From the NCBI GenBank assembly GCA_030524585.1, contig JAUNGJ010000031.1, positions 1 through 38,801 of the forward strand: a stretch of DNA of 38,801 nt. The letters are read 5' to 3'. Below, one piece after another: positions 20,202-38,706 of this stretch. Both the position numbers and the translations under genes were made by a program. How positions within the stretch are numbered: the stretch's first letter is position 1; each line of letters begins with the position of its first letter. This DNA comes from Eubacteriales bacterium (GTDB lineage: Bacteria; Bacillota; Clostridia; Lachnospirales; Lachnospiraceae). The notes beneath the pieces are model-generated. The model worked only from the letters and a program-made list of their open reading frames with translations. It made no database searches and had not been told where the DNA came from.

Positions 20202-20882
20202 TCATTCATATAGAAACTGAATATTCTCGTAAATTTCAGCAAAATCAATCTCTAAATCACCACGAAAAATTCCTACCGGCACCTTATCCTCAAATGTATA
20301 GACAGCCGGCTCCTTCTTATGTTCAAAATCATGTACCGTCACAAGCTTTTTCCAGGGGTCAACGTCCCAGTACTCCCTGACGCCGGCATTCTTATACTTA
20401 TGATACTTTCGGTTCTGTTCCTTCAAAGTATTCGACGGAGAGAGTATCTCGATCACAAAATCCGGCGCGCCATAATACACCCTTTCCCTAACCTCATCCC
20501 GGTTGCAGGTAACAATCAGATCCGGCTGTACCATCGTCTTATCATCCCGATCCAGCTGTACATCAATTGGCGACATGAATGGAAAACAGCTTCCTTGATG
20601 ATCCATTATGTACTGATGGAATCTGACAAACAGCTCACCGCCCACTCCCTGATGACGGTAGGTTGGCGCGGTCATATTGTAGATCACACCATCCATCAGC
20701 TCCACGCGACAGGTCTTTGGCAAAGCATAATAATCCTCTATGGTATATTCACCCTGCTTCTTCGCAAGCAGGCGTTCCAGTGCAGGATCTCCCGCTGCCT
20801 GATATGCTGTCTGTGATTCCTTAATAAAATCCGGATAACTTCCTTCACCATGTCCATTATATTCGTATTTTTCTTCGCTCAT
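20202..20882 (-). CDS. Uma2-family (DUF820) putative nuclease, copy 1
   Basis: A 226-residue soluble protein of the Uma2 family, which adopts a PD-(D/E)xK nuclease-like fold but whose biological role is not established. Family features: MDGVIYNMTAPTYRHQ (about residues 63-78), VQPDLIV (Asp), the VIEILSPS segment (Glu) and GVREYWDVDP. AAAGGAG seven bases before the ATG supports the start. Two further Uma2 genes lie 2.4 kb downstream. Its N-terminal half differs from theirs, while its C-terminal half (EPAVYTFEDKVPV region) resembles that of the gene at 22633-23319. Divergent from the DMT transporter gene. Confidence 0.85.
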   Translation of the reverse strand: MSEEKYEYNGHGEGSYPDFIKESQTAYQAAGDPALERLLAKKQGEYTIEDYYALPKTCRVELMDGVIYNMTAPTYRHQGVGGELFVRFHQYIMDHQGSCFPFMSPIDVQLDRDDKTMVQPDLIVTCNRDEVRERVYYGAPDFVIEILSPSNTLKEQNRKYHKYKNAGVREYWDVDPWKKLVTVHDFEHKKEPAVYTFEDKVPVGIFRGDLEIDFAEIYENIQFLYE

Positions 20883-22632: not shown

Positions 22633-23319
22633 TTATCGGTCAGATACAAATTTTATCTTTCGATAAATATCTTCAAAATCAATTTTCAGCTCTCCATTAA
22701 AAATATGTACCGGAATCTTATCTTCAAATGTGTATATAGCCGGCTCTGCTTTATGCTCCGTATCATACACAGCTACCCTCAGCTTTTTCGGATCTACAAT
22801 CCAGTATTCCCTCACTCCTGCCTTCCTGTATTTATTGTACTTTATAATCCGATCACTTTTTTCACCGGACGGCGACAGTATCTCAACTATAAAATCCGGC
22901 GCCCCGAACAATACTTTCTCCCGCATCTTGTTCCGGTCGCATACTACATATATATCTGGCTGTACCATCGTTTTATCGTCCTGATCAAGCTGAACATCCG
23001 CCGGTGAAATCATTACCATACATTTCCCTTTCTTCCGCCTCATCCATGTATCCAGCTGCACCGCAATCTCCGTAATAATCGCTTGGTGAAGATTCGTCGG
23101 CGCCGCCATATTATAAATCACGCCGTCTATTAGCTCTACCCGACAGGTCTCCGGCAGCGCATAATAATCCTCCACCCTATACTCTCCCTGTTTCTTCGAG
23201 AGGAAACGTCCCAGCACCGGATCCCCGCTCTCCTTATATGCAGCTTGCGCTTCCTTAATAAAGTCCGGGTACATGCGCTCTTTCTGATTGTACCCATATT
23301 CTGTAATATCTTCGCTCAT
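22633..23319 (-). CDS. Uma2-family putative nuclease, copy 2 (mosaic)
   Basis: A 228-residue Uma2 protein. Residues 1-123, ending at TMVQPDI, are identical to those of the next Uma2 gene upstream, with one synonymous nucleotide difference. The remainder departs completely and instead resembles copy 1 (FGAPDFIVEILSPS, AIYTFEDKIPVHIF). The putative active-site residues lie across the junction: QPD in the shared half, VEILS and the K/GVREYWIVDP region in the divergent half. AAGGAGG precedes the ATG at 23319. It starts ten bases after the stop of copy 3 and is surely co-transcribed. Function unknown. Confidence 0.85.
   Translation of the reverse strand: MSEDITEYGYNQKERMYPDFIKEAQAAYKESGDPVLGRFLSKKQGEYRVEDYYALPETCRVELIDGVIYNMAAPTNLHQAIITEIAVQLDTWMRRKKGKCMVMISPADVQLDQDDKTMVQPDIYVVCDRNKMREKVLFGAPDFIVEILSPSGEKSDRIIKYNKYRKAGVREYWIVDPKKLRVAVYDTEHKAEPAIYTFEDKIPVHIFNGELKIDFEDIYRKIKFVSDR
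22952..23319 (-). repeat. 368-bp near-identical 5' half of Uma2 copy 2
   Basis: Matches 23697-24064 at every position but one (23308 versus 24053, a silent change). The identity begins abruptly at 22952 and runs through the start codon to the ribosome binding site, where a single-base indel occurs. It indicates recent duplication or gene conversion limited to the 5' half. Confidence 0.95.
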
Positions 23320-23329
23320 TCTTCCTCCT

Positions 23330-24064
23330 TCACACAAGTCCCAGATCTGCCATTAATTCTTCCTTCTGTTCCATATCTGCCAGCGTTATCCTGCATTCCC
23401 CCTGATAGATATGTACCGGAATCTCATCCTGATAAGTATATACCACCGTCTCCTCACCTCTCTCAAGCAAATGTACCGTAATCCGCCGGGTTTCGGGATC
23501 TACAATCCAGTACTCCCTCACTCCTGCCTCCCGATACTTCCTGTATTTAGTCACCCGGTCCCTCTTCCGGCTGGAAAATGACAGCACCTCTACCACCAGA
23601 TCTGGAGCCCCCTGAAAGGCACGGTAAACTTTCTTCTCACTTCTCTTTCTTTTATCCCTGCCTTCCTTCTGATTCTCCTTTGCGCAACAGACAAAAATAT
23701 CTGGCTGTACCATCGTTTTATCGTCCTGATCAAGCTGAACATCCGCCGGTGAAATCATTACCATACATTTCCCTTTCTTCCGCCTCATCCATGTATCCAG
23801 CTGCACCGCAATCTCCGTAATAATCGCTTGGTGAAGATTCGTCGGCGCCGCCATATTATAAATCACGCCGTCTATTAGCTCTACCCGACAGGTCTCCGGC
23901 AGCGCATAATAATCCTCCACCCTATACTCTCCCTGTTTCTTCGAGAGGAAACGTCCCAGCACCGGATCCCCGCTCTCCTTATATGCAGCTTGCGCTTCCT
24001 TAATAAAGTCCGGGTACATGCGCTCTTTCTGATTGTACCCATATTCTGTAATGTCTTCGCTCAT
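23330..24064 (-). CDS. Uma2-family putative nuclease, copy 3
   Basis: A 244-residue Uma2 protein, first of a two-gene Uma2 operon. Residues 1-123 equal those of copy 2. The C-terminal half is distinct and carries a basic insertion (KENQKEGRDKRKRSEKK, about residues 128-144) before the family segment GAPDLVVEVLS and GVREYWIVDP, then ends in a longer tail. The insertion makes it longer than copies 1 and 2. AGGAGG five bases before the ATG at 24064 fixes the start; the frame continues 20 codons upstream without a start signal. A near-consensus promoter lies upstream. Function unknown. Confidence 0.85.
   Translation of the reverse strand: MSEDITEYGYNQKERMYPDFIKEAQAAYKESGDPVLGRFLSKKQGEYRVEDYYALPETCRVELIDGVIYNMAAPTNLHQAIITEIAVQLDTWMRRKKGKCMVMISPADVQLDQDDKTMVQPDIFVCCAKENQKEGRDKRKRSEKKVYRAFQGAPDLVVEVLSFSSRKRDRVTKYRKYREAGVREYWIVDPETRRITVHLLERGEETVVYTYQDEIPVHIYQGECRITLADMEQKEELMADLGLV
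23697..24064 (-). repeat. 368-bp near-identical 5' half of Uma2 copy 3
   Basis: Partner of the segment at 22952-23319, offset 745 bases, with one substitution in 368. Confidence 0.95.
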
Positions 24065-24114
24065 TCTTTCCTCCTTTTCAATATGGTTATTATTATTTTC
24101 TAATTTGTCTATAA

Positions 24115-24143
24115 ATAATAACATAAGTATTCATGTATGTCAA
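24115..24143 (-). promoter_or_regulatory. Promoter of the Uma2 copy 3 - copy 2 operon
   Basis: On the minus strand: TTGACA (24143-24138, perfect), 17-base spacer, TATTAT (24120-24115, 5 of 6), about 50 bases before the start. One of the best promoters in the window. Confidence 0.75.
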
Positions 24144-24259: not shown

Positions 24260-25048
24260 CTAGTTCTCCATCCAGTTCTCTCCATCGGAATAATCAATCT
24301 CTACCCCGGGCTGTACATTGTAGCAGTACACATGAAACTGCACACCCTGTCCATGATCCTCCACGGATTCGGCCTCCATTTCTACTCCGGAGGCTACCAG
24401 ATCTGTTCCATCATAAACAGGGGTCACCCGATAGAGCACGTGATTTCCCGTTTCCCGAACGTACTCTGCTACCTGATTTTCAAAGGGAAGCATCCCCTCC
24501 ACATTCATATACCGGGTTCCGGTAATCAGATTTCGTTCATTCGCATTCTCTCCTGCCAGCTGAAATCCGATCAGGTGACAGCGGTTATACACATATCCTC
24601 CATCCACAAAATCATAATACTCATTCTGCCATCCGCTGGGCTCCACCTGACTAATATCCCCGCGTTCGCCGTCAGGCATCAGATCTGTTCCCACATTTGC
24701 ATAAGCGCTTCCACATCTTCCGAGCAGATCCAGCTTACTGTAGCTCTCGAAAGATTCTTCCGTCTTATCTTCTTCTGAAAAATCTGCCTCATTTCCATCC
24801 AATACCACATAGGGCTGTCCTGAGTATTCCGGAATATCATCCAAAGATATGGACGTCTCATTTCCTGTCAGCCTTACGGCAAACTGTTCTAACTGCTCTA
24901 TTCCAAACTCCGCCGCCCGCTGCATCTTTCCCGGAAACTCCGGATCTACAAAATACGTATAGCAGCCGCACAGAATTCCTAATATAACAATCAGCAGAAG
25001 CAGTTTTCTACTCAAATGCTTCTGCTGCCTCTTACGTCTCTTTTTCAT
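24260..25048 (-). CDS. Exported DNA/RNA non-specific endonuclease (EndA-like)
   Basis: A 262-residue nuclease of the beta-beta-alpha metal family. A basic N-terminus precedes one hydrophobic helix (about residues 17-32, ending LCGC), so the enzyme is exported and membrane-held, possibly as a lipoprotein. The catalytic region reads YNRCHLIGFQLAGENANERN: the His of NRxH is the general base and the later Asn binds the metal. This NRxH form replaces the DRGH of Serratia-type enzymes and is common in Gram-positive relatives. The role may be nucleic-acid scavenging or DNA processing for uptake; no competence genes are nearby. Its ATG is four bases after the lipase stop. The frame extends 14 codons further back, inside the lipase gene. 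Confidence 0.85.
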   Translation of the reverse strand: MKKRRKRQQKHLSRKLLLLIVILGILCGCYTYFVDPEFPGKMQRAAEFGIEQLEQFAVRLTGNETSISLDDIPEYSGQPYVVLDGNEADFSEEDKTEESFESYSKLDLLGRCGSAYANVGTDLMPDGERGDISQVEPSGWQNEYYDFVDGGYVYNRCHLIGFQLAGENANERNLITGTRYMNVEGMLPFENQVAEYVRETGNHVLYRVTPVYDGTDLVASGVEMEAESVEDHGQGVQFHVYCYNVQPGVEIDYSDGENWMEN

Positions 25049-25052
25049 AATC

Positions 25053-25976
25053 CTATCTTCTTGCTTCCAGCCACTGGTACAGATCCTCATAAACCTCCAT
25101 CCGGTTTACCTCATTCAGTATCTCGTGACGTCCTCCCGAATACAGCTTCATCTGCACATCCTTCATACCACTGCTCTCGTATTTGCGAAAGACTTTTGTC
25201 ACACCTTCGCCATTTGCTCCCACCGGATCATCTGCTCCAGCCACAAAGAATACCGGAAGCTCCTTCGGAAGCTTCTGCACAGCCTCCTTCTTCGTCAGAA
25301 CCTTCATTCCCTCAAACATCTGATAGTATCCGTTCACCGTAAATGTGAAGCTGCACAGGGGGTCTGCCTCATAGGCCTTACGCATCTCTTCATCAGAAGT
25401 AATCCAATCCTTCGTACTGTCGCTTGGCTCAAACTGCTTGTTATAGCCGCCCATACCAAGACGATTTACAAATTCACTTCTGTAATTCCATCCTTTCACA
25501 GCTGCAATGGCTTTACAGACCGTCTGTCCGACCGCCAGAAGTCCATAAGGCATATATCCGGTTCCCATGATAATGGCTCCCGCAAGGCCCTCTGCCCGCA
25601 GTGTCAGATATTGGCGGAGCAAAAAGGAGCCCATGCTGTGTCCCATCATAAAATAAGGCACTCCCTCATACTTCTTCTGCGTTGCCCTGCGAAGCCTGTG
25701 AATATCCGTAATTACATATTTATTTCCGCTGGTCTCATGAAAGAAGCCCAAGTGATCCTCACTCTGTACGGACTTTCCATGCCCCAGATGATCATGCCCA
25801 ACTACGCAGAACCCTCGGTCAGCCAAATATTTTGCAAATCCATCATACCGGTCAATATACTCGACCATACCATGGCAGATCTGCAGCACAGCTTTTACCT
25901 TTCCTTCCGGCTTCCACTCTATTGCATGAATCTGTGTCACACCGTCGCTTGACGGATAATAAAATTCCCGTTTCAT
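25053..25976 (-). CDS. Alpha/beta hydrolase (lysophospholipase / monoacylglycerol lipase-like)
   Basis: A 307-residue cytoplasmic serine hydrolase. Features: HGMVEYIDRYDGFA (oxyanion region, about residues 35-48), nucleophile elbow GHSMGSF (about 113-119), FVAGADDPVG (Asp) and GGRHEILNE (His). The motif set matches the lysophospholipase/monoglyceride lipase group (Hydrolase_4). The substrate is probably a lysophospholipid or monoacylglycerol. GGGGGAAG precedes the ATG at 25976. It lies 37 bases after the citrate synthase gene with no terminator between, and 4 bases before the nuclease gene. Confidence 0.88.
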   Translation of the reverse strand: MKREFYYPSSDGVTQIHAIEWKPEGKVKAVLQICHGMVEYIDRYDGFAKYLADRGFCVVGHDHLGHGKSVQSEDHLGFFHETSGNKYVITDIHRLRRATQKKYEGVPYFMMGHSMGSFLLRQYLTLRAEGLAGAIIMGTGYMPYGLLAVGQTVCKAIAAVKGWNYRSEFVNRLGMGGYNKQFEPSDSTKDWITSDEEMRKAYEADPLCSFTFTVNGYYQMFEGMKVLTKKEAVQKLPKELPVFFVAGADDPVGANGEGVTKVFRKYESSGMKDVQMKLYSGGRHEILNEVNRMEVYEDLYQWLEARR

Positions 25977-28453: not shown

Positions 28454-29419
28454 TTAATACAACAGCTGATCCAACAGTTTTTTGCTGGCGTCAAGATCAA
28501 TTTCCAATACCTGCATGCCCTCATAAACAACCGGAGTATACATCCCCTCCTGCGGTATTCCCGCCTGCTGTGTCAGCAGATTTTCCGTACCCAGCACATC
28601 TTTTGCTATATTATAGATCTCCGTCACCGACATATTCGTGCTCACCTGATTCATGCAGTAGTTAATCAGCGGCAGTATCGTTGACGGATTCTTCTCTGAC
28701 ATCACTTTATTATAAATGCCATACATAACGCTTCTCTGTCTCCGGGTTCTTTCAAAATCATTACCAAGCGTCCGGTTTCTTGAATGTGCCAGCGCCTGAG
28801 AACCAGTCAGAGTCACCGAACCGGACACAATATCCGGCATTCCCGTCTTGCGGTAATACTCTGCCTCTTCCTCCGTGATATGTACCGTCACTCCGCCAAT
28901 CTCATCGATAATATTAACCAGATTATCAAAGCTGATGACAACATAATTCTGAATATCAAGGCCGTAGACCTTATTCAGAGTATTGATCGTAAGTCCCACC
29001 CCGCCATATGCATAGGTATGACCAAGTCTGCTCTTTCCATATCCGTCAATCTCCACCAGAGAATCCCTCAGGAAAGAAACCGCAGTGATCTTATTTTTCC
29101 CTTTGTTATAGGATACCAGCATCATACTGTCAGAACGTCCCATATCCGAATCCGGATCCCGGGTATCCGTACCAACCAGCAGTACATTGATTACATCCTT
29201 ATCCTTTTGATCTTCCTGCGCAATCTTAACGTTTTTTGCTTTCGGATCCACATCGTCTGCCGATACAATATCGACCGAATCCTTATAAAGCCTCCAATAA
29301 ATTGAGCCAACTGTTCCAGCAACAAGAAGCAGAAACAAAAGCATAATAATCCCCACAATTTTCCAGAAACTTAACTTTTTACGCTTTCCACGCTTCCTGC
29401 GTTTCTTTTTACCGATCAC
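28454..29419 (-). CDS. LytR-CpsA-Psr (LCP) family cell-wall polymer ligase
   Basis: A 321-residue membrane protein with a very basic N-terminal tail, one membrane helix (about residues 18-42) and an extracellular LCP domain. LCP enzymes transfer lipid-linked teichoic acid or capsule to peptidoglycan. Family features: LLVGTDTRDPDSDMGRSD (about 79-96), the Arg of SFLRDSLV, and the NRTLGNDFERTRRQR segment (about 214-228) with phosphate-binding Arg residues. The start codon is GTG at 29419, supported by AAGGAGG seven bases before it. Last gene of the polysaccharide operon, consistent with attaching its product to the wall. Confidence 0.92.
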   Translation of the reverse strand: MIGKKKRRKRGKRKKLSFWKIVGIIMLLFLLLVAGTVGSIYWRLYKDSVDIVSADDVDPKAKNVKIAQEDQKDKDVINVLLVGTDTRDPDSDMGRSDSMMLVSYNKGKNKITAVSFLRDSLVEIDGYGKSRLGHTYAYGGVGLTINTLNKVYGLDIQNYVVISFDNLVNIIDEIGGVTVHITEEEAEYYRKTGMPDIVSGSVTLTGSQALAHSRNRTLGNDFERTRRQRSVMYGIYNKVMSEKNPSTILPLINYCMNQVSTNMSVTEIYNIAKDVLGTENLLTQQAGIPQEGMYTPVVYEGMQVLEIDLDASKKLLDQLLY

Positions 29420-29431
29420 TTTGATTCCTCC

Positions 29432-30934
29432 TTAGTCTTTCATCACACGTCCTGATTTATCCCCAGATCTGCCCGAAGCTGCATAATGCCCATAATGTCC
29501 GTAATTGCCATAGCTTCCGTACCTTTTATATCCATAGCTGTATCCATAGCCATAAGCACGGCTTTTGCTGGATTTGTCCGCATTAAATACATATCCCAGA
29601 ATACCAATGCCGCTCATATCCAGCGACTGAATACCCTCTCGAATCTGCCGAAGCTTCGCATAATCATATTTTACCACATACAGCGCGCCATCCACGAACT
29701 TTGCAAGCGCCGGCGCATCTGCCAGCAGGCCCGACGGAGCCGTATCTAATATTACAATGTCTGCATGTTCCGCCAGCACTTTAAGCAGCTCACGCATTCT
29801 TCTGGTGCCCAGAAGTGCAGAATCCTTGTCGTTCGGCTCTCCTCCATAAAGGATTTCCAATCTTCCGCCGGATACCTCTACCGCAGTCATCGCTTCTGCA
29901 AGCTCCGCTTTTCCCCTAAGCACCGCTCCCAATCCGGGGTGTTCCTCCTGATCATTCATAGTGTCAGCCACAGACGGATTTCTGGGATCACAGTCCACCA
30001 GGATTACCTTCTTCCCCTGCTTTGCTATCGCAATCGCCAGGTTCACAGCCAGTGTAGTCTTGCCTTCTCCCGGAACAGAACTGGTAATCAGCAGTGTCCG
30101 GTATCCTCTCTGCTCCATCTCTTTCATTACTTTTACCCGCAGCTTCCGAATCGCCTCCAGATAAACCTGCGGAACCCGGTCGTTCATCAGACTTATGGAG
30201 CTGTAGAAAGTCTCCTTCTTACGCTTTTTCTCACGAATAAACGGTATACTTCCATAGTCCTCCAGATTGACGCCGGTTTTTAATTTCTTTCTCGATTTTA
30301 CAGTCCTGCGCGTAACAATATACAAAGCCATGATCACAAGTCCGATGACCGCGCCTTTCAGCGCACCCCTCCGGTAGGATCCCCGAATCACAACCGTCCG
30401 CCCCGTATCCGACGGGATTCCGGTCTCATCCAGAATGTCCAGCGTCGTCTCGCCGATTACAAACTCTGCAACCTTCGGATAGTTCTCAATTACAGACTGC
30501 AGAATATTATATGCCAGCTGCGGATCATTCGCCGATACAGACAGTGTAAACAGATTTGTCCCTTCGTCCGCCGAAGCACTGATGTTTCCCGGAACAGATT
30601 CCATTCCCATATCTTCCGCAACCACATCCTGCAGCACTCCACTGGTCAGAATATAAGGAAAAACCTCCGCCATCTGCTGTGCCGACTGCGTATTGATGTA
30701 GGACATACTGCTTGTCCCCGCTGACCGGACCGCCATCGTCGCCGATGCAACGTACTCCGGCTGGTAGCTGGAGCTCACAGAAAAATACGATTGAACCGCA
30801 AATATCGCCGCAAGCCCGATCACAAGCCACCAAAATTTCTTAATTCCCTGATAAACGTCCTGCATAAATTCCATCAGGTCAATTTTATCCGATTCATCTA
30901 TTCTCTTGCTACCAGTCTCTCTATACTCGCTCAT
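29432..30934 (-). CDS. Polysaccharide co-polymerase / bacterial tyrosine autokinase (fused CpsC-CpsD type)
   Basis: A 500-residue protein with an N-terminal Wzz-like domain between two membrane helices (about residues 35-55 and 190-208) and a cytoplasmic BY-kinase domain. Walker A is VPGEGKTT, Walker A' is VILVDCDPRNPS and Walker B is VILDTAPSG. The C-terminus (about 455-490) is a Gly/Tyr/His-rich tail with many Tyr residues, the usual autophosphorylation cluster. It should regulate chain length and export of an extracellular polysaccharide, opposed by the CpsB phosphatase at 33277-34035. It lies two bases after a second, diverged BY-kinase gene. Confidence 0.92.
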   Translation of the reverse strand: MSEYRETGSKRIDESDKIDLMEFMQDVYQGIKKFWWLVIGLAAIFAVQSYFSVSSSYQPEYVASATMAVRSAGTSSMSYINTQSAQQMAEVFPYILTSGVLQDVVAEDMGMESVPGNISASADEGTNLFTLSVSANDPQLAYNILQSVIENYPKVAEFVIGETTLDILDETGIPSDTGRTVVIRGSYRRGALKGAVIGLVIMALYIVTRRTVKSRKKLKTGVNLEDYGSIPFIREKKRKKETFYSSISLMNDRVPQVYLEAIRKLRVKVMKEMEQRGYRTLLITSSVPGEGKTTLAVNLAIAIAKQGKKVILVDCDPRNPSVADTMNDQEEHPGLGAVLRGKAELAEAMTAVEVSGGRLEILYGGEPNDKDSALLGTRRMRELLKVLAEHADIVILDTAPSGLLADAPALAKFVDGALYVVKYDYAKLRQIREGIQSLDMSGIGILGYVFNADKSSKSRAYGYGYSYGYKRYGSYGNYGHYGHYAASGRSGDKSGRVMKD

Positions 30935-30936
30935 CT

Positions 30937-32376
30937 CTATCTATTACCTCTGTTTTTCCCGTAGTTACCATACCTGCCGTATTTGCCATAGCCACCGTAA
31001 TATCCGCCGATCGGCGTACTGGAAAATGATTTCACCCCATTCAGCACTACCCCCAGTACCTTTGAATGATGTGCTCTGAAGGCGTCCAGCGCATCATTAA
31101 TATCCTCTGACAGCATATAATTCTGCTTCACGACAACCATCACTGCATCCGCGTAGCCTGCAAGCACTTCTGCGTCTCCCATCATGCCCGCCGGCGGGGA
31201 ATCGATAATCACATAATCCATAGACTTCCTGCACGCTTCAATCAGCTTTTTCATCCGCTCCGACTGCAGAATCTCTGTAGATGTAGAATAACAGTTTCGG
31301 CCTATCATCAGATACAGGTTCGGAAGATCACTTTTGATAAGAATATCATTGATCTGGCCCTGACCCTTCAGAAATTCGCCAATCTCGTTCTTATCCTCCG
31401 GCTTCTGCCCAAAAATCAGAAACTGGGACGGTCTTCTTAAGTCTCCCTCTATCAGCAGAACTTTTTTCGCCTGCTCCGCCAGCGTAATCGCAAGATTAGC
31501 CGCCACCGTGGACTTTCCCTCATTCTCGGAAACACTGGTCACAACCAGCACCTTCCGCTTATCCTTCGCCATCTGATAATCCACTTTCGTGGCCAGCTTC
31601 TTATATCCTTCCACAAACACAAATCCGGCCACCGGGCTATTAACCAGCAGTGCGCCTTTCTTACGTCTCAACAGCTCCTTAACCGTCTTATACTTGCTCT
31701 CATATGCAATAACGCCAAGATTCCTCGCATCCAGCTTCTCTTCGATCTCATCCTCCTGCTTGATGGTATCCTTCATATAGGACAGAATGCCAAACAGCAG
31801 AATCAGAACCGCCGCTCCTGCCAGAAAACCTTTCTTCATCGCACCCCGGGCGTCTAACGGATTGTCCGGAGCCATCGGAACCTTCGGCTCCTCTAAAACA
31901 TCCATTACCGTATTCCCCACCGTATAAAAGGAAACGCTGGTATAATTGTCCATAATCGACCGAATGACGTCTATCGCTTCCTTAGGAGATTTCTCTGTAA
32001 CCGTAAGTACCAGAAGGTTCGTCCCCTCCAATACCTCCGTATTGATCTCCGCATCCAGCTCATCAATCTTCAGTTCCTCACAGACCGTCTTTGCCATAAT
32101 ATTACTCTGCAGAATCTTCTCAAAGGTCTGCGCCATAGAATAAGCCGAACTTAGATTGCTCGCCGCATTGGAATCTCCCTTAGAAGCCACCACAAACGTG
32201 GTAGAAGTTGAATACTCCGGTATATAGCGCACGTTTATCACCACATAGGTCAGCAAAGCCGCCGCTATCGCTCCCAAAAGAATCACCCACCAGTTTGTCA
32301 AAATGTCATGTATTAATGTAAATGGCTCTATCTTCAGTTGTTCCAGCCCCTGGACATCATCTCTATCATTTCCCAT
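30937..32376 (-). CDS. Polysaccharide co-polymerase / bacterial tyrosine autokinase, second copy
   Basis: A 479-residue Wzz/BY-kinase fusion with the same layout: membrane helices near residues 30-48 and 188-205, then the kinase domain. Walker A is the variant SENEGKST, Walker A' is VLLIEGDLRRPS and Walker B is VIIDSPPAGM. The tail (about 453-479) is GGYYGGYGKYGRYGNYG-like, again Tyr-rich. Sequence identity with the downstream kinase is low, so the pair is old. GAGGAG seven bases before the ATG supports the start. It lies four bases after the preceding DUF5011-like gene. Confidence 0.92.
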   Translation of the reverse strand: MGNDRDDVQGLEQLKIEPFTLIHDILTNWWVILLGAIAAALLTYVVINVRYIPEYSTSTTFVVASKGDSNAASNLSSAYSMAQTFEKILQSNIMAKTVCEELKIDELDAEINTEVLEGTNLLVLTVTEKSPKEAIDVIRSIMDNYTSVSFYTVGNTVMDVLEEPKVPMAPDNPLDARGAMKKGFLAGAAVLILLFGILSYMKDTIKQEDEIEEKLDARNLGVIAYESKYKTVKELLRRKKGALLVNSPVAGFVFVEGYKKLATKVDYQMAKDKRKVLVVTSVSENEGKSTVAANLAITLAEQAKKVLLIEGDLRRPSQFLIFGQKPEDKNEIGEFLKGQGQINDILIKSDLPNLYLMIGRNCYSTSTEILQSERMKKLIEACRKSMDYVIIDSPPAGMMGDAEVLAGYADAVMVVVKQNYMLSEDINDALDAFRAHHSKVLGVVLNGVKSFSSTPIGGYYGGYGKYGRYGNYGKNRGNR

Positions 32377-32380
32377 TCCG

Positions 32381-33253
32381 CTACTCCTCTACTACCACAG
32401 CCAACTTTGTCACCGCTTCCACTCCGCCTTCCGGCGTATATGAATAGTTCACCGTATAGGTTCCGGCTTTTGAATAATCCACATTCGACTGAATCTGTAT
32501 CTGATCCGGAGACACCTCAATATAAGCGCCATCCTCCGCAAAGGTATACTCAGCTCCCCCGCGCATGATTCCTTTCAGATAGGAACCCAGGTCAATCTCT
32601 GAACCAACCTTTGTGTAAGCAATATACTCCGACAGCATTGGATAACTCTTGCTCGATTCTGTCCGGTCTGTATTATCCGTAACAGTTACCTCCAGAGGAA
32701 CCGCGCAGACATCACCGTAGCTGTTGCTCACCTGCGCCGTAATTTCATAGGTTCCCGGCTCATAATCATAAAAGCTGTCTCCCAGTGAAGTCCGAATCTG
32801 ATTGGTCAAATCCCCGTCCAGACAATCCTCTGCCGTCATATCCGCAGTAAGATCCGCCGACTTCAATTCGCTGACCGTATACTTAAGCGGCTTGGTCAGA
32901 TGAATCTTCGGCGAAGTGTAATCCGTATAAATCAAGGTTCTCTGAGCAGTTCCCGCCTGATTTGCTTTATCAAAGACGATATATTCTACCGTACATTTTC
33001 CTTTTTCCGTAAAATGTGACTTTGATGAAATGCGAATCGACTTCGTAATGTCTCCATCCCTATTATCCTTCGCAGTTACGCCCTGCAGAAGCTCCGATTC
33101 CTCTGCCTCCACACTCACAGAAATTGTATCTTCCTCACATGTAATCACCGGAGGCGTATGATCCTCCACCATCCGTATCTTCACAGTATATATCCCAAAT
33201 ATCACACATGAAGCCACAAACATAAGACACACTATTATTCTAAGTTTTCTCAT
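32381..33253 (-). CDS. Membrane-anchored protein with DUF5011-like/Ig-like domains in the polysaccharide operon
   Basis: A 290-residue protein with one N-terminal membrane helix (about residues 4-24) and an extracellular part made of two repeats of the DUF5011 type: TAKDNRDGDITKSI and TAEDCLDGDLTNQI, each followed by a GTYEIT or KCTVEYIV strand. A third Ig-like domain ends the protein (AGTYTVNYSYTPEGG). Function unknown; the position between cpsB and the kinases suggests a role in polysaccharide assembly or surface retention. AAGGAG ten bases before the ATG at 33253 favours that start over a TTG at 33280. Confidence 0.78.
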   Translation of the reverse strand: MRKLRIIVCLMFVASCVIFGIYTVKIRMVEDHTPPVITCEEDTISVSVEAEESELLQGVTAKDNRDGDITKSIRISSKSHFTEKGKCTVEYIVFDKANQAGTAQRTLIYTDYTSPKIHLTKPLKYTVSELKSADLTADMTAEDCLDGDLTNQIRTSLGDSFYDYEPGTYEITAQVSNSYGDVCAVPLEVTVTDNTDRTESSKSYPMLSEYIAYTKVGSEIDLGSYLKGIMRGGAEYTFAEDGAYIEVSPDQIQIQSNVDYSKAGTYTVNYSYTPEGGVEAVTKLAVVVEE

Positions 33254-33276
33254 CACGCTATTTCTCCTTACACCTG

Positions 33277-34035
33277 TCAATCCTCTTCTTCAAATGATCT
33301 GAGCGCAAACCGAATTGTATTCTGATTCTCACAGATACGGCGCGGATTCTCTTCAAAAAGAACCTTCAGACATCGTTCCGAATATTCCGTGCGAAGTTCC
33401 TCATATGCATCCAGCATATAAGGTGTTCTCTGATAGGGACTATGAGCGTCACTTGCAATCACGGATACCAGATTATGATCCATCATACGGTAAGCAGCCG
33501 CCTGCGCCCGCCTTCCAAACCTTCCAAGGAAGCTTCCCTTATTAATCTGCACCAGATAGCCCTTCTTCCTCCACTCATATACAATCTGGGGATCATCCTG
33601 CACAAACTCATACCGCTCCGCATGGGCAATCACTGGTTTTGCGCCTACTTCGCGGACCCTGTCCACAATATCCTGTGCAAATTCCGGCTCCTCATCAAAA
33701 GCAAATTCCATTAAAATATAGCGGCTCTGGTTCAGCGGCATAATCTTCTTCTCTACAATAAGCTCCGGCAGATCATATGTTGAAAATACCTCCATCCCCG
33801 GCAGCAGCTGAATCGGGATTCTCTCTCTCTGTACCGCCTTCACGGTCTTCTGAAACACTTCCACGTATTCCCTGCCAAAATAATTGTCAAATCCTCCCGG
33901 TATATTACAGTGCGGTGTGGCAACCATCGCAGTAACTCCGGAATCCGCCGCCATTCGCACCATCTCCAGCGTATCATAGATATCCTGGGCTCCATCATCA
34001 ATTCCCGGAAGAATATGCGTATGTATATCTATCAT
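33277..34035 (-). CDS. cpsB: CpsB/CapC-type tyrosine-protein phosphatase (PHP fold)
   Basis: A 252-residue manganese-dependent phosphatase that dephosphorylates BY-kinases. The PHP metal-binding motifs are visible: IDIHTHILPGIDDGAQ (residues 2-17), ATPHCN, PVIAHAERYE and ASDAHSPYQRTP. AAAGGAT precedes the ATG at 34035; a TTG seven codons upstream is less likely. First gene of the operon carrying both kinases, giving the standard phosphatase-kinase circuit for controlling extracellular polysaccharide. Confidence 0.92.
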   Translation of the reverse strand: MIDIHTHILPGIDDGAQDIYDTLEMVRMAADSGVTAMVATPHCNIPGGFDNYFGREYVEVFQKTVKAVQRERIPIQLLPGMEVFSTYDLPELIVEKKIMPLNQSRYILMEFAFDEEPEFAQDIVDRVREVGAKPVIAHAERYEFVQDDPQIVYEWRKKGYLVQINKGSFLGRFGRRAQAAAYRMMDHNLVSVIASDAHSPYQRTPYMLDAYEELRTEYSERCLKVLFEENPRRICENQNTIRFALRSFEEED

Positions 34036-34067
34036 TTTATCATCCTTTGTCAACACAATAATATATA

Positions 34068-34104: not shown

Positions 34105-35892
34105 TTAAAAATCCATAGCCATTTTGCCTGCCTCTTCCTCATCCAGTTCCGTGATTCTGGTATCCATCACCCGATAAACACGCTGACACAGATTCAGTAC
34201 GCTTGGCCGGTGTGTCGTAACAATACACGTCTTATTTGGCTTCTGGCTGATAATATTTTTCAGAACTTTCCGCTCCGTAGTCACATCCAGCGCAGAGGTC
34301 GCCTCATCAAGAAGAAGAATCGGCGCATCCCGGAGCACAGCCCTGGCAATAGCAATTCGTTGAGCCTGGCCTTCTGAAAAGCCCCGTCCGCGTTCGCCAA
34401 TATTACTGTTAATCGTGTCCGGCATCTTTCCCACAAAATCCCACGCGCAGGACACCTTCAGCGCTTCAATAATCTCCTCATCCGTTGCATCTTCCTTCAC
34501 CATACGCATATTTTCCGCAATCGTACCGGAAAGAATCGTGTTTCCCTGGGGAACATAGGCAAACAGATGTCTGGTCTCCGCATTCATCACAACCTCGTAT
34601 CCGTTAGAACCAATAATCACCGTCTGGCCCTCTTCCGGGCGGATCAGCCCCAGAATCAGGCGGATCATTGTTGTCTTTCCCTCGCCGGACGGTCCTACCA
34701 ACGCTACAATCTCGCCTGGACACGCCTTAAAAGCAGATTCCGTAATTACCTTTGTTCCTTCTATATAAGAAAATTCCACATCCCGCATTCGAACTTCAAA
34801 TCCATCCTCCGCAAGCGCATCCAGTTCCGCACTTTCAGAAATGTGAACCTCCTTTGGAAGCTCCACCAGTTCTCTGATACGGTGCGCAGATACAGAACTG
34901 TTCAAAAAGGACGGAATAATCGATACAACATTATTAAATGCCCCGGACAGATTGCTTCTCTGCTGCAAAAACAACGTCATTGTTCCATAAGTAATATCAT
35001 GGGTCCACAGCCGGAACAGACAGTACCCAAATGCTGTAAACTGCACCAGATTCCCCAGAATGGACAGCAGAATGTTCGTCTTGATCGTAAACATATTATA
35101 TCTCAGACTGATATCCTTAAACTTCTCCTGCCACCAGCGCATTTTCTTACTATAATAAGGCGCAATTCCAAAAGACTTAATCGTATCAAAATTATAGAAG
35201 GCCTCCACCTCAAAAGTCATAAGCTTACTGCTCATCTCCCGGACTTTCTTGCTGTATTCCCTCTGCTTTTTAATCATAAACCTTGACATCAATAACATAA
35301 AGGGTGCGCTTCCCAGGGCAATCACCGCCATGATCCAATCATAATGCAGAATCACAAAAAAAGTGGCAATAAAATTGTATACGGCAATTATAATCGTGGG
35401 CAGCCAGCTGATCGCATTGCCGCTGACCGTCCCAATATCTCCGTTGAACCGGTTCAGAACATCTCCGTTCGAATACTGGTTAATCGCCATCCAATCTGCA
35501 TCAACAATCTTATCAAATATATCTGCCTGAATATCATTATTAATATAGATACTGAGTTTTGCCGATATACGGCTGATAATGCTGCTGAACAGCAGACTAA
35601 ACACAGAGCTTCCTATCATAATAATAAGCATTACTGCCAACTTAGACGTCTCATACCCTGTAATAATGTCGATCAGGTATTTGCTCGCCACACTCCCTAC
35701 CAATCCAAGAGATGTACTGAAAATTCCAAGAATGATATAAAAAGCAATCGCACCCTTATATCTGGCGCTGTAGCTGAATATCCATTTCCAATCATCTATA
35801 ATCTCCGCAAAAGTACCATCCTTCCACCGGGATATAAGAATATCCAACGACTCAAAAGACAGATTCTTTCCATTGTTCTTATTCTCTTCCAT
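34105..35892 (-). CDS. ABC exporter (fused membrane and ATPase domains) of the RiPP cluster
   Basis: A 595-residue ABC exporter half-transporter: six membrane helices (about residues 45-320) followed by an ATPase domain with Walker A GPSGEGKTT, signature FSEGQAQR (in place of the usual LSGGQ) and Walker B ILLLDEATSALD. There is no N-terminal C39 peptidase, so it cannot itself remove a leader peptide. The position downstream of a radical SAM and PqqD-like pair suggests export of the modified peptide. The frame opens at 35907, but AAAGG seven bases before the ATG at 35892 favours that start. A terminator-like hairpin sits just upstream. Confidence 0.9.
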   Translation of the reverse strand: MEENKNNGKNLSFESLDILISRWKDGTFAEIIDDWKWIFSYSARYKGAIAFYIILGIFSTSLGLVGSVASKYLIDIITGYETSKLAVMLIIMIGSSVFSLLFSSIISRISAKLSIYINNDIQADIFDKIVDADWMAINQYSNGDVLNRFNGDIGTVSGNAISWLPTIIIAVYNFIATFFVILHYDWIMAVIALGSAPFMLLMSRFMIKKQREYSKKVREMSSKLMTFEVEAFYNFDTIKSFGIAPYYSKKMRWWQEKFKDISLRYNMFTIKTNILLSILGNLVQFTAFGYCLFRLWTHDITYGTMTLFLQQRSNLSGAFNNVVSIIPSFLNSSVSAHRIRELVELPKEVHISESAELDALAEDGFEVRMRDVEFSYIEGTKVITESAFKACPGEIVALVGPSGEGKTTMIRLILGLIRPEEGQTVIIGSNGYEVVMNAETRHLFAYVPQGNTILSGTIAENMRMVKEDATDEEIIEALKVSCAWDFVGKMPDTINSNIGERGRGFSEGQAQRIAIARAVLRDAPILLLDEATSALDVTTERKVLKNIISQKPNKTCIVTTHRPSVLNLCQRVYRVMDTRITELDEEEAGKMAMDF

Positions 35893-35919
35893 TAGCCAGC
35901 CTTTCACCCCTTCTAATTG

Positions 35920-35946
35920 AAAAAAGAGCCAGACATTATGCCTGGC
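35920..35946 (-). terminator. Hairpin with T-run between the PqqD-like gene and the exporter
   Basis: On the minus strand a 7-bp stem (35946-35940 with 35934-35928, one G-U pair) and 5-base loop are followed by TCTTTTTT. It is 54 bases after the PqqD-like stop and 28 bases before the exporter start. Confidence 0.65.
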
Positions 35947-36000
35947 CTGCGAGTTTCCTTGTTCAATATAACCGTTTTCAGTAATTAAGTCAAGGAACTT

Positions 36001-36267
36001 TTAAAATTCAATCATTCCAACTTCTTTTAATGTATTTAAAAAGCCAATCACATCAGCCTCTGCTGTCTTCCTGTCTACTTCAAAAGTTTCCAAAACCCGC
36101 TCTACCATTTCTTCCGGCGATTCACATTCTTCCATGTTCTTCCATATAAATCCGGCCACCGCATTCGTTGAAATCAAACCATTAAAGTACTGCACCGCTT
36201 TTCCTGTCGGAACAATCACCGTTTCATCCACAATGGTCTTTGCTATATAATTCGGATTAATCTTCAT
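36001..36267 (-). CDS. PqqD-like RiPP recognition protein
   Basis: An 88-residue PqqD-family protein (RiPP recognition element), a winged-helix fold that binds a leader peptide and presents it to the modifying enzyme. Family features: GKAVQYFNGLISTNAVAGFIWKNME-type segment (residues 22-46), and an acidic helix followed by LNTLKEVGMI at the end. Its ATG overlaps the end of the radical SAM gene by 11 bases, the usual sign of coupled partners. It most likely binds the N-terminal region of the 38290-38706 peptide. Confidence 0.88.
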   Translation of the reverse strand: MKINPNYIAKTIVDETVIVPTGKAVQYFNGLISTNAVAGFIWKNMEECESPEEMVERVLETFEVDRKTAEADVIGFLNTLKEVGMIEF

Positions 36268-37366
36268 CGCTCTCTGCTCCCTTCTCCAGCAACTCTATAT
36301 AACACCTCGTAAGCTTACAATAATATTCCGGCACTCCACTAATATCTTTTGTCTCACTAATCGCAGCTGCCGCACATCGTCCGCACAAAATTCTCATTTT
36401 ACAATAATGGCATTTCTCCGACATCCACGATTCATGAACATGATTCTTTATCATTCCCCAGGCTTTCGCAAATCCTTCTTCAAATACATTTACCTGATAG
36501 TCATTCGTGAAACTGCAGGCGCTCATCGTTCCGTCATAATTAATCCAGTATACACTGTTGCCAGAACGGCATGTATACCCAGATTGATACGCCTCTGTCT
36601 GTTCATAGTTATGATAACGATCCAGCGAATATCTGGCATATCTGCCAAATTCCGTTCCATACCGGAGTTCTTCCGCCCGATACCTTGCATATGCAGCATC
36701 CTCTGCCGTCAGGCGGTACTTCTCATTTCCTATGTTATTCGTACGCACCGGCGGAAACATATAAAATCCCATGTCTATCGGAATATCCAAATCCACTGCT
36801 GTCTGATACATCTTCTCCTGATCATGAATATTATAAGGTGTCAGACTACAGTTAAATTTAATACTAATATCCCGGTCCTTTAGTCGCTTTACCGCTCCCA
36901 TAACCTGAGTAAACCCTTTCGGATTTCCACACAATCTGCCATAAGTCTCATCACTTGCGCCATATAATGTAATATTGAGTCTTCTCGGAGGGTCTTCTGC
37001 CAGCCAATCCGCAATCTCATCCGTAATCAGCGTACCATTCGTATTAATAGATACAATATATCCCATCTTCTTCAAACCAAAATACAGTTCCTTCAGATTT
37101 GGGTACAAAAATGGTTCCCCTCCTGTCAGCAGCATAAATATAGATCCTGCAGCACTGGCCTGTCCTGCAATTTCCAGCCATTCTTTATAATCATGCATAG
37201 GGCTATGGGCTTCCATTTCCTGCCGTGTCATTTTCGCAAAACACATCTTACAATCCATATTGCATAATGGAAGCAATTCTATATTACCCGCAATCGGAAT
37301 CTGTGCAAGATCTGCTTTGTTACATATCCCCTGTTCTATAGGATTTAAATGCTTTATTGGATCCAT
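36257..37366 (-). CDS. Radical SAM/SPASM peptide-modifying enzyme
   Basis: A 369-residue radical SAM enzyme. The [4Fe-4S] motif CNMDCKMC (C35, C39, C42) is followed by the LLTGGEPF (GGE) motif and a TIM-barrel body. The C-terminal SPASM domain has the expected Cys series: C-x12-G-x4-C (CRSGNS...GTMSAC), CHYCKMRILCGRC, then YYC, ligating auxiliary iron-sulfur clusters. Such enzymes install thioether, C-C or epimerised residues in RiPPs. AAAGGAG precedes the ATG at 37366. The gene overlaps the upstream kinase-like gene by 47 bases and the PqqD-like gene by 11. The exact modification cannot be read from the sequence. Confidence 0.92.
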   Translation of the reverse strand: MDPIKHLNPIEQGICNKADLAQIPIAGNIELLPLCNMDCKMCFAKMTRQEMEAHSPMHDYKEWLEIAGQASAAGSIFMLLTGGEPFLYPNLKELYFGLKKMGYIVSINTNGTLITDEIADWLAEDPPRRLNITLYGASDETYGRLCGNPKGFTQVMGAVKRLKDRDISIKFNCSLTPYNIHDQEKMYQTAVDLDIPIDMGFYMFPPVRTNNIGNEKYRLTAEDAAYARYRAEELRYGTEFGRYARYSLDRYHNYEQTEAYQSGYTCRSGNSVYWINYDGTMSACSFTNDYQVNVFEEGFAKAWGMIKNHVHESWMSEKCHYCKMRILCGRCAAAAISETKDISGVPEYYCKLTRCYIELLEKGAESDED

Positions 37367-38219
37367 GCTCTTTCTCCTTTAATCTATCTTCCAGCACATC
37401 GACCGCACGCTCTTCCTTCGTACAGCTGTAGTGATACATGTCCACATGCTCTGCGATTTCAGCAATCATTTCCATGGCCGTCTCCAGGAAATTCCTGTCA
37501 AAAAAATTGATTGTAATTTCACTAATCAGTTTCTTAATCCTTTGTTTCAGATCCATTTCTTCAATCTGATTTTCCATCGCCTGAGAAAGATAAATAATAG
37601 CCCGCACCGGAACCGTCACATTCCTGCAAATATCAGAAGAACCGCAAATCGGCATGCCATATGCATAAACCTGCCCATTTTTCATCTTTAAGATTGTCCG
37701 GTCACCATTAGCAATTACCGCTCCCCGGCACTTTTCCCACAGCATCGCCTGAGTAGACTTTCCCGTTCCCGAAGGCGCTGTAAACAGAATCGCCTGTCCC
37801 TCCCAAATAATAAAGGAAGAATGCAGTACTACGCCCCGATGCTTCATCAGCACCTTTTCAAACGCCATCGCATTAAAGATACTATAATTATCCTCCCGTA
37901 AAAAAGACTCCATAAACCTTCGGTTCAAATAAATAACCTTTTTCTCTTCATATTCCTTGTACAGCATACAGGGTTCATCCTGTCCCCAGAAAAAATGTAG
38001 CCGCTCTTCATATTCACCGTTTCCAAAAACCATCTGAAACTGATCCCGATAAAGCAATTCACCCTCACACGGCAGCACATCTACACATTCACACTCATAA
38101 TATTCATCATACGATTCCTCCGGCGCACACAGGAAAGCACTAATATACGAATTCCATGCCACCTCAATCTCTGATTCCATACATATCCTGATGTCTGCAA
38201 TATTGAAATAATATCTCAT
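37320..38219 (-). CDS. HPr kinase-like protein of the RiPP cluster
   Basis: A 299-residue protein with a C-terminal HprK-type kinase domain: HSSFI followed by ILFTAPSGTGKSTQ (Walker A, about residues 148-157) and IANGDR, then a Met/Glu-rich helical end. It lacks the HPr kinase N-terminal domain and instead has about 120 unassigned residues. HprK-like proteins recur in RiPP clusters; in some lasso peptide clusters they phosphorylate the precursor. Here a peptide kinase or an ATP-using accessory role is possible; carbon catabolite control of HPr is unlikely. GAGG precedes the ATG at 38219, directly after a terminator-like hairpin. Confidence 0.82.
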   Translation of the reverse strand: MRYYFNIADIRICMESEIEVAWNSYISAFLCAPEESYDEYYECECVDVLPCEGELLYRDQFQMVFGNGEYEERLHFFWGQDEPCMLYKEYEEKKVIYLNRRFMESFLREDNYSIFNAMAFEKVLMKHRGVVLHSSFIIWEGQAILFTAPSGTGKSTQAMLWEKCRGAVIANGDRTILKMKNGQVYAYGMPICGSSDICRNVTVPVRAIIYLSQAMENQIEEMDLKQRIKKLISEITINFFDRNFLETAMEMIAEIAEHVDMYHYSCTKEERAVDVLEDRLKEKEHGSNKAFKSYRTGDM

Positions 38220-38233
38220 ATTTTCCTCTATAT

Positions 38234-38267
38234 AAAAATAAGAAGAAGTCCCCTTCTTCTTATTTTT
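38234..38267 (-). terminator. Perfect 15-bp intercistronic hairpin after the precursor gene
   Basis: Arms 38253-38267 and 38234-38248 pair perfectly around a 4-base loop. The 3' arm ends in TTTTT on the minus strand. It lies 23 bases after the precursor stop and 15 bases before the kinase-like ATG, so it can act as a partial terminator and also stabilise the precursor mRNA. Confidence 0.8.
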
Positions 38268-38289
38268 AAACTTTCATTTCATAACTTTC

Positions 38290-38706
38290 CTAAGATAAAT
38301 TGTATTTCTCCGCCAAAGACAAATCAATTACCGTATCATGCATAATAAAACCATCCGGATCATTATTATATGTTCCATGCCGCTTCACATGCTGGCTAAA
38401 ATCAGTATCATTTGGATGTGCCGCAAGCCAATTCTGTTTATTACATCCATCAGTATATGCGCACGCTTCAAACTGAGTGTAAAACTTGTCTCCAGATGCT
38501 GTTCCTACACCCGGATTAAACTTCACAATACAATCAATCTGACTATCCAAAAACATTGTATTATATTGTGTATTATTGTGTCCCGGACTGATACATCGTA
38601 CCTGTGTCGGTTGCACATTATACATTGGCTCGGTGCACGCTGCTACATACTGATTTGCGATGAATGTCTCCGCAAACATCTTTGGGCTTTCATAGATTTC
38701 CTTCAT
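38290..38706 (-). CDS. Putative RiPP precursor peptide (radical SAM-modified)
   Basis: A 138-residue protein without signal peptide or membrane segment. The N-terminus reads MKEIYESPKMFAETF followed by IANQYVAAC (residues 16-24), a leader-type pattern I recall from many gut Firmicutes peptides beside PqqD and radical SAM genes. The rest is rich in Asn, Asp, Thr, Tyr and His, with Cys at 24, 38, 59, 82 and 88 and no enzyme motif that I recognise. GGGAGTG seven bases before the ATG supports the start. It leads the cluster and is followed by a hairpin, consistent with high expression. It is unusually long for a precursor, so the core may be a small part of it or several segments. Confidence 0.7.
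   Translation of the reverse strand: MKEIYESPKMFAETFIANQYVAACTEPMYNVQPTQVRCISPGHNNTQYNTMFLDSQIDCIVKFNPGVGTASGDKFYTQFEACAYTDGCNKQNWLAAHPNDTDFSQHVKRHGTYNNDPDGFIMHDTVIDLSLAEKYNLS

Follow-up and report, generated by a model that had tools for sequence, protein, structure and literature searches.

Five genes of a 38,801-nucleotide stretch of Lachnospiraceae DNA (contig JAUNGJ010000031.1; hereafter the window, which is the whole of contig C103 in a 2.8 Mb assembly of 115 contigs) were found to form a cassette that is probably a Clostridia-centred variant of the phosphorylated ribosomally synthesised and post-translationally modified peptides (RiPPs). The cassette encodes a precursor, an HprK-like kinase, a radical S-adenosylmethionine (rSAM) enzyme with a SPASM domain, a PqqD-like RiPP recognition element (RRE) and an MsbA-like ABC exporter. 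In the reading that we consider moderately probable, the kinase would phosphorylate the C-terminal Ser of the precursor, the rSAM enzyme would act on its Cys-containing core, and the modified small protein would be exported for the cell surface. What the sequences themselves establish is the set of genes and its recurrence, together with the leader, the fixed Cys, the C-terminal Ser, the intergenic hairpin and the capsule-gene context.

The five open reading frames (ORFs) lie on the minus strand in the order given above (Table 1), as the original prediction had described; the overlaps that it had reported between the middle genes are 47 nt (kinase/rSAM) and 11 nt (rSAM/PqqD). The region further upstream of the precursor is unseen, because the contig stops 95 nt away. 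Pfam assigned the rSAM enzyme to Radical_SAM (PF04055, E 1.4e-22), the RRE to PqqD (PF05402, E 3.3e-17) and the exporter to ABC_membrane (PF00664) and ABC_tran (PF00005), both over cut-off. The best NCBIfam match of the exporter was the MsbA model, below its cut-off, and no C39 peptidase match was obtained with Pfam. The precursor had no family match in Pfam, NCBIfam or PHROGs. Its search against solved structures returned eight chance-level matches, mostly GH71 (E 0.15-0.25), and precursor profiles searched in the same way gave three collagen matches for cluster A7 (E 0.31-0.91) and none for A6 or A5.

For the comparative counts, a scan was seeded with the four kinases of the genome, and the best 80 of 210 confirmed relatives were retained as loci (L015-L094; 76 Bacillota and 4 Bacteroidota, most from Clostridia). 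Many contigs end early, so gene counts over the 80 loci are lower bounds: PqqD 63, leader-type precursor 60, ABC 30, S26-type peptidase 28 and PF14907-type gene 22. Precursors were recognised with a leader model built from nothing but residues 1 to 28 or 29 of the genome's own four precursors, which holds no C-terminal information, and ORFs of 45-260 aa above this model were counted. The model recovered 74 ORFs in 60/80 loci, giving 78 precursors with the four own sequences.

All 78 precursors carry [Y/W/F]xxP, followed by a Cys 16-21 residues past the aromatic residue of the motif (at 19 or 20 in 74 of them). The leader Phe stands at Px6F in 72/78, N or S predominates at Px9, and 77/78 have two or more Cys. 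Precursor lengths range from 74 to 174 aa. The window precursor is 67-71% identical to its homologues in L015 and L016, and within a cluster, as in A6 and A7, conservation can be recognised from genus to genus. A by-eye suggestion that VAAC might be a lipobox was rejected, since no hydrophobic stretch precedes it.

The precursors end in Ser far more often than their surroundings: 69 of the 74 leader-model ORFs (73/78 with the own four, all of which end in Ser) vs 378 of 4077 other small ORFs. The exceptions are L021 (A), L043 (I), L048 (V), L081 (Y) and L072 (R), the last apparently frameshifted and still scored as a miss. When the leader-free cores were clustered (E 1e-3), a Ser-ending majority was found in 16 of the 20 clusters. 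The terminal codons were TCA 25, TCC 25, TCT 16, TCG 6 and AGC 1, so that all four TCN codons are used. Sequences below the leader model were left uncounted (L056, ending in Y; L044 and L094, both ending in S), as were those of later genome samples (L155, S; L152, T; L127-L129, D, V and N). In the class sample, leader-1 matches above 14 bits in rSAM loci (L146, L153, L154, L157, L163) also end in Ser.

The precursor is separated from the kinase gene by a hairpin that folds at a z-score of about -5 (-4.7 and -5.2 in two calculations). In relatives, where the gap between the precursor and the following gene measures 35-200 nt, it folds at z < -3 in 36 of 45 cases; L015 is a clear exception among the nearest kin of the window. 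A leader-type precursor was present in 58 of the 70 rSAM loci. Homologues of the rSAM enzyme consistently lacking such a precursor, which had been named as grounds for abandoning the prediction, were thus not seen, and the two counts together (58/70 and 36/45) indicate that the arrangement recurs beyond chance.

The rSAM enzyme is coupled both to the kinase and to Cys in the precursor. The three Cys of its CX3CX2C motif are kept in 69, 69 and 70 relatives out of 70, respectively; the SPASM set (C266-X12-G279-X4-C284, C319-X2-C322-X5-C328-X2-C331, C350) is invariant in 70/70; by sequence, the best solved-structure match is SkfB. The gene occurs in 70/80 loci; in 56 of these 70 it shares its strand with the kinase gene and is no more than 150 bp away from it. 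Among 391 genomes of the class, the kinase was found in 14 of 15 rSAM-positive genomes (the window genome included) vs 97 of 376 rSAM-negative genomes (Fisher 1.4e-7); among 246 genomes of the order it was found in 6/6 rSAM-positive genomes, one of which (G211) has both genes on different contigs. Only 2 of 11 genomes of the genus carry the rSAM gene, so the trait is patchy, and no rSAM relative was found on plasmids at E 1e-15. Precursors carry Cys in 91/91 cases in rSAM loci and in 2/9 in loci without rSAM. Within leader class 2 alone the figures are 15/15 vs 0/6. Both comparisons suggest that the Cys-bearing core is the substrate of the rSAM enzyme.

The kinase is a remote match. The window protein has no Pfam match, Hpr_kinase_C (PF07475) included, and its NCBIfam scores (ScmC 33.9 bits, HprK_rel_A 21.1 bits) are below cut-off; the sole PF07475 match of the genome is a separate, genuine HPr kinase gene on contig C76. 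All 84 kinases compared have His133, the P-loop Lys154 and Asp173, with Arg or Lys directly after the Asp. Lasso-peptide kinases carry a catalytic H-K-D-D set (PMC9266682, PMC10368454), and in paeninodin-type systems the target of the kinase is a C-terminal Ser (PMC9266682). A C-terminal Ser target is therefore suggested here by the Ser ends, their spread over 16/20 clusters, the use of all TCN codons, the paeninodin precedent, the invariant His, Lys and Asp, and the pairing of motif with precursor end: precursors with and without a Ser end number 71 to 5 beside xD[R/K] kinases and 3 to 17 beside DD kinases (Fisher 8e-12), an association that is not independent evidence because the tree carries only about two switches of motif. 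Two further kinases (L029, L061), parsed as ADI and by inspection NGDR, accompany Ser-ending precursors and are outside the 71. Where the locus holds no rSAM gene (some of these loci are cut by contig ends), 23/36 kinases read NDD. In the class sample the rSAM-less kinases read NDD, those of the window genome excepted, and several rSAM loci read NDD too. On plasmids, two partial kinase relatives were found, one annotated 'hypothetical protein' and one in an unannotated record.

It is conceivable, though unlikely, that the HprK-like protein is not a kinase or has another target, and that it is the rSAM enzyme, the exporter or an NTP transferase that recognises the C-terminal Ser. Residue 172, before Asp173, is Gly in 83/84 kinases, and the profile matches HprK weakly (PDB 1ko7, E 0.22; PF07475 in 1/32 family members, E 0.0026). 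In hhalign comparisons, genuine HPr kinases reached 82.9% and ABC proteins 84.5%, so that an HprK fold is likely, not proven. The HPr kinase alignment, however, spans 104 columns and pairs the His, the P-loop Lys and the last Asp, whereas the ABC alignment covers 34 columns and the P-loop only. The invariance of His, Lys and Asp, a profile match to DD-type relatives of 100% and the tight coupling of the kinase and rSAM genes also speak for a kinase.

The original prediction had proposed a maturation and export system dedicated to one peptide. A dedicated RiPP-type cassette is supported; the restriction to one peptide is not supported as stated. The genome contains four precursor/kinase/rSAM sets, that of the window and three on contig C78 (a search with the window precursor alone finds one of the three), but a single NTP_transf_5 gene (PF14907, on C78) and, over cut-off, three for PqqD. 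The sets may therefore have components in common. The capsule-gene context, the recurrent Ser end, the fixed Cys and the hairpin are additions to the original prediction. One C78 set adjoins two Wzz/BY-kinase-like ORFs and adds PqqD, NTP_transf_5 and an S26-type peptidase (best NCBIfam sigpep_I_arch, 26.6 of 51.85 bits); its kinase and rSAM genes are on opposite strands. The two other C78 sets have short precursors and lie near proteins of 1209 and 1551 aa.

Elsewhere, loci L099-L123 (mostly group f11) hold compact HprK-like/PqqD modules that lack rSAM and often include an S26-type gene; no YxxP precursor was recognised within about 1.5 kb of them. Beside some of these modules stands a gene that we take to be a homocysteine methyltransferase/MTHFR fusion.

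The surroundings point to the cell envelope. Immediately downstream of the exporter lies the only CpsB gene of the genome, followed past CpsB/CapC by an Ig-like protein, two Wzz/BY-kinase-like proteins and an LCP-family protein. Over the 80 loci, CpsB was found in 17, BY-kinase in 20 and either in 25 (raw counts, with no background rate). Loci were classed as short or long by their longest precursor (long: over 112 aa). The 29 long-precursor loci include 13 with capsule genes, 17 with ABC and none with a giant neighbour. The 31 short-precursor loci include 23 with a protein of at least 1000 aa immediately upstream, 21 with a membrane protein of about 250 aa, 7 with capsule genes and 6 with ABC. 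Four of seven giants scanned had matches over cut-off (GH20, VWA, pilin-like Ig, dockerin, MucBP and Big_9 among the domains) and three had none. Because CpsB adjoins the exporter, CpsB or BY-kinase occurs in 25/80 loci, and LPP (PMC13381572) and paeninodin genes are often in capsule loci too, the product may have a role at the surface.

By eye, giants beside short precursors (L042, L060, L063, L065, L066, L068, L083, L085, L087; L014:5118-9773) have an amphipathic, aromatic-rich tail (for example ...FFKNLFSGLFN and ...KKIFGLV), possibly a surface-retention signal. The giants of L023, L040, L054 and L070 have no such tail, and that of L034 ends in dockerin. The protein of about 250 aa (L014:2027-2794; relatives in 23/80 loci) is hydrophobic over an N-terminal stretch, belongs to no Pfam family and accompanies the short-precursor sets.

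From these comparisons we infer each chemical step and role of a Clostridia-centred phosphorylated-RiPP pathway, as follows. RiPP operons commonly make the precursor in excess of the enzymes, and here the excess would be aided by the hairpin past the precursor stop. The PqqD-like RRE would then hold the YxxP leader, because it has a Pfam PqqD match, matches RREs of lasso and LPP systems in the PDB (TbiB1, 5v1u; 9x90; and 9x8z, which is LppB according to PMC13381572, E 0.026), and [Y/W/F]xxP is present in 78/78 precursors; a YxxP-type motif is bound by lasso and LPP RREs (PMC13381572). The HprK-like enzyme would place a phosphate on the C-terminal Ser side chain; the SPASM rSAM enzyme would act on the Cys-bearing core, most likely forming thioether cross-links. 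A signal-peptidase-like enzyme may cut near the fixed Cys; the candidate gene is on C78, and none was found in the window by model. The MsbA-like exporter would release the product, which may serve capsule or exopolysaccharide assembly. At other loci the same machinery is encoded beside large surface proteins.

Several observations weigh against this scheme. One of the lasso H-K-D-D catalytic residues is replaced: Gly stands for the first catalytic Asp, so kinase activity may differ. The HprK-like RiPP kinases BsfK and LppK act on core Ser3 (LppK: PMC13381572), and an independent-contrast comparison of kinase motif with C-terminal Ser gave only 2 pairs. In more distant genomes, short precursors of the LRxEE type accompany rSAM and kinase but for the most part lack a Ser end (L147, L148, L150, L151, L178). 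In L127-L129 an ORF of 124-131 aa stands between the kinase and rSAM genes, and its last residue is D, V or N, respectively. The Ser end thus marks one leader class, not every set with rSAM and kinase; conversely, both L149 precursors end in Ser beside a DD kinase. The leader-1 model includes the fixed Cys, so the Cys contrast of 91/91 vs 2/9 is partly built in, and class 2 is the fairer comparison. The 192 ORFs of the window include no S26-type peptidase or NTP transferase as judged by one-sequence models on a cut contig. Capsule genes adjoin just 13/29 long-precursor loci (limited flanks) and 7/31 short-precursor loci, with no background rate.

A second precursor class was observed in L148, L150, L151 and L178, with ORFs of 39-87 aa, a YxxP...LRxEE leader and two or three copies per locus. 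These precursors often have a Ser directly before the first Cys, and DD-type kinases stand alongside.

A more elaborate alternative, which we hold to be improbable, is peptide-glycan conjugation. The rSAM enzyme would cross-link the core through Cys, and the C-terminal phospho-Ser would be a handle by which NTP_transf_5 and the neighbouring capsule machinery join the protein to a sugar or polysaccharide; the kinase would be a new G-D-[R/K] subtype, whose Arg or Lys could receive the terminal carboxylate.

The cassette was also compared with known systems. Like sactipeptide and ranthipeptide clusters, it combines a SPASM rSAM enzyme with a Cys-containing precursor; it differs in its kinase, its capsule context and its long conserved cores, and its thioethers are only predicted. 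An ordinary bacteriocin cluster of this type, with an antimicrobial product and the kinase-like gene as accessory or regulator, would account for the SPASM enzyme, RRE and exporter, which are its usual parts, and for the two or more Cys in nearly all precursors. We judge it rather unlikely, because the kinase accompanies rSAM in 14/15 rSAM-positive genomes, the precursors are long and conserved across genera, and capsule or large surface-protein genes adjoin in many loci. With the SynChlorMet cassette (TIGR04248-04251; content taken from the model names) the window shares an HprK-like, a PqqD-like and a SPASM rSAM gene, and ScmC is the best NCBIfam match of its kinase; the scores are far below cut-offs (for ScmC, ScmD and ScmE-F in turn, 33.9 of 125; 21.1 of 100; 62.6 and 52 of 400 bits). 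The term SynChlorMet had no occurrence in the open-access literature searched.

Lasso peptides are far shorter than the window core of about 115 aa. Paeninodin-type lasso systems (PadeK, ThcoK, PsmK/PsmN) share with the cassette a [Y/W]xxP-type leader, a discrete RRE, an HprK-like kinase and a C-terminal Ser, with an NTP transferase in some clusters. They differ in that the window kinase departs from H-K-D-D (GD for DD) and that an rSAM enzyme is present here. No lasso cyclase or B2 protease was found among the Pfam-scanned window proteins, which are part of the window ORFs. PsmN adds a hexose, and the two mentions of radical SAM in the same paper concern epimerases (PMC9266682). Some lasso clusters of anaerobes hold HPr kinase genes and, separately, radical SAM sactipeptide clusters are described (PMC4289311).

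The LPP systems of Bacilli, often in capsule loci, comprise an RRE, an HprK-like kinase, a SipW-like peptidase, an NTP transferase and an MsbA-like exporter, with the phosphate on core Ser3 (Popov et al. 2026, PMC13381572). The window shares the discrete RRE, the YxxP leader, the kinase (remote match), the exporter and the capsule locus; genes for a peptidase and an NTP transferase of these kinds lie outside the window, on C78. The original prediction had matched the combination to no characterised RiPP class. Kinase, RRE and exporter do match LPP (PMC13381572) and lasso kinases (PMC9266682); the SPASM rSAM enzyme is unmatched there, and the words radical, SPASM and C-terminal Ser have zero occurrences in the LPP main text. 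The LPP leader (YxxPxVLxHQxIxFETxxS, Px9F) is not found: YxxP is kept and the Phe is at Px6F. The window family further differs in Cys-containing cores, a C-terminal Ser, NGD[R/K] rather than DD, and its occurrence mostly in Clostridia. Because the LPP leader and the lasso H-K-D-D set are not present and an rSAM gene is added, the cassette is best placed as a variant within the phosphorylated RiPPs. That it is a plain LPP member with an acquired rSAM gene, phosphorylated early in its core like LppA and with the last Ser incidental, is very unlikely: the core gene types and the kind of locus are the same and many relatives have HprK-PqqD or HprK-PqqD-S26 modules without rSAM, but the LPP leader motif is lost and no Ser is conserved at +1 to +4 past the fixed Cys across the 78 precursors (the cleavage site itself being presumed), whereas the C-terminal Ser is.

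No description of rSAM modification and phosphorylation on one precursor was found in the titles, abstract openings and passages covered in an open-access library that lacks most subscription papers; PMC9266682, PMC5067487 and PMC7829367 mention the terms in unrelated contexts.

Table 1. Coordinates of the cassette and adjoining features in the window
Feature	Coordinates	Strand	Characteristics or basis
Precursor, 138 aa	38290..38706	-	leader of about 23 aa, YxxPxM (YESPKM), conserved F; Cys24; long Cys-containing core; C-terminal Ser
Leader codons 1-23, presumed RRE-binding/cleavage region	38638..38706	-	pattern kept over 78 precursors; cleavage site presumed
Cys24 codon, presumed leader/core junction	38635..38637	-	Cys position kept in 78 precursors
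C-terminal Ser codon TCT, predicted phosphoacceptor	38293..38295	-	Ser end in 73/78 precursors
16-bp intergenic hairpin, precursor/kinase gap, attenuator-like	38233..38268	-	folding z
HprK-like kinase, 299 aa	37320..38219	-	H133, P-loop K154, NGDR with D173
Radical SAM/SPASM enzyme, 369 aa	36257..37366	-	PF04055, conserved Cys sets
PqqD-like discrete RRE, 88 aa	36001..36267	-	PF05402, PDB matches
Terminator-like hairpin, PqqD/exporter gap	35927..35947	-	consensus match only
MsbA-like ABC exporter, 600 aa from GTG (in-frame ATG at 35892)	34105..35907	-	PF00664, PF00005
CpsB/CapC-type protein	33277..34056	-	sole PF19567 match of the genome
Ig-like (PF16403) protein, N-terminal hydrophobic stretch, capsule-control set	32381..33280	-	homologues in 21/80 loci
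Wzz/BY-kinase-like protein 1	30937..32376	-	Pfam scan
Wzz/BY-kinase-like protein 2	29432..30934	-	sequence; seed and match of the BY-kinase model, not Pfam-scanned
LytR-CpsA-Psr (LCP) family protein	28454..29419	-	PF03816

Past the capsule-control genes, on the same strand, lies a DNA/RNA non-specific endonuclease gene (24260-25090; PF13930) with an N-terminal hydrophobic stretch. Three similar ORFs (20202-20882 and 22633-24124), two with near-identical N-termini, look like a local duplication; the one that was scanned is Uma2-type (PF05685).

If the favoured reading is right, the cassette would unite two RiPP chemistries, radical SAM modification and substrate phosphorylation. Its precursors belong to an extensive group of small proteins, found mostly in Clostridia and, as sampled, in neither Pfam nor NCBIfam, whose genes keep company with those for capsule control or for large surface proteins. 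Because these sets offer substrates with a single obvious acceptor, kinases with two types of active site, and loci both with and without rSAM, they make the role of phosphorylated RiPPs in capsule loci testable.

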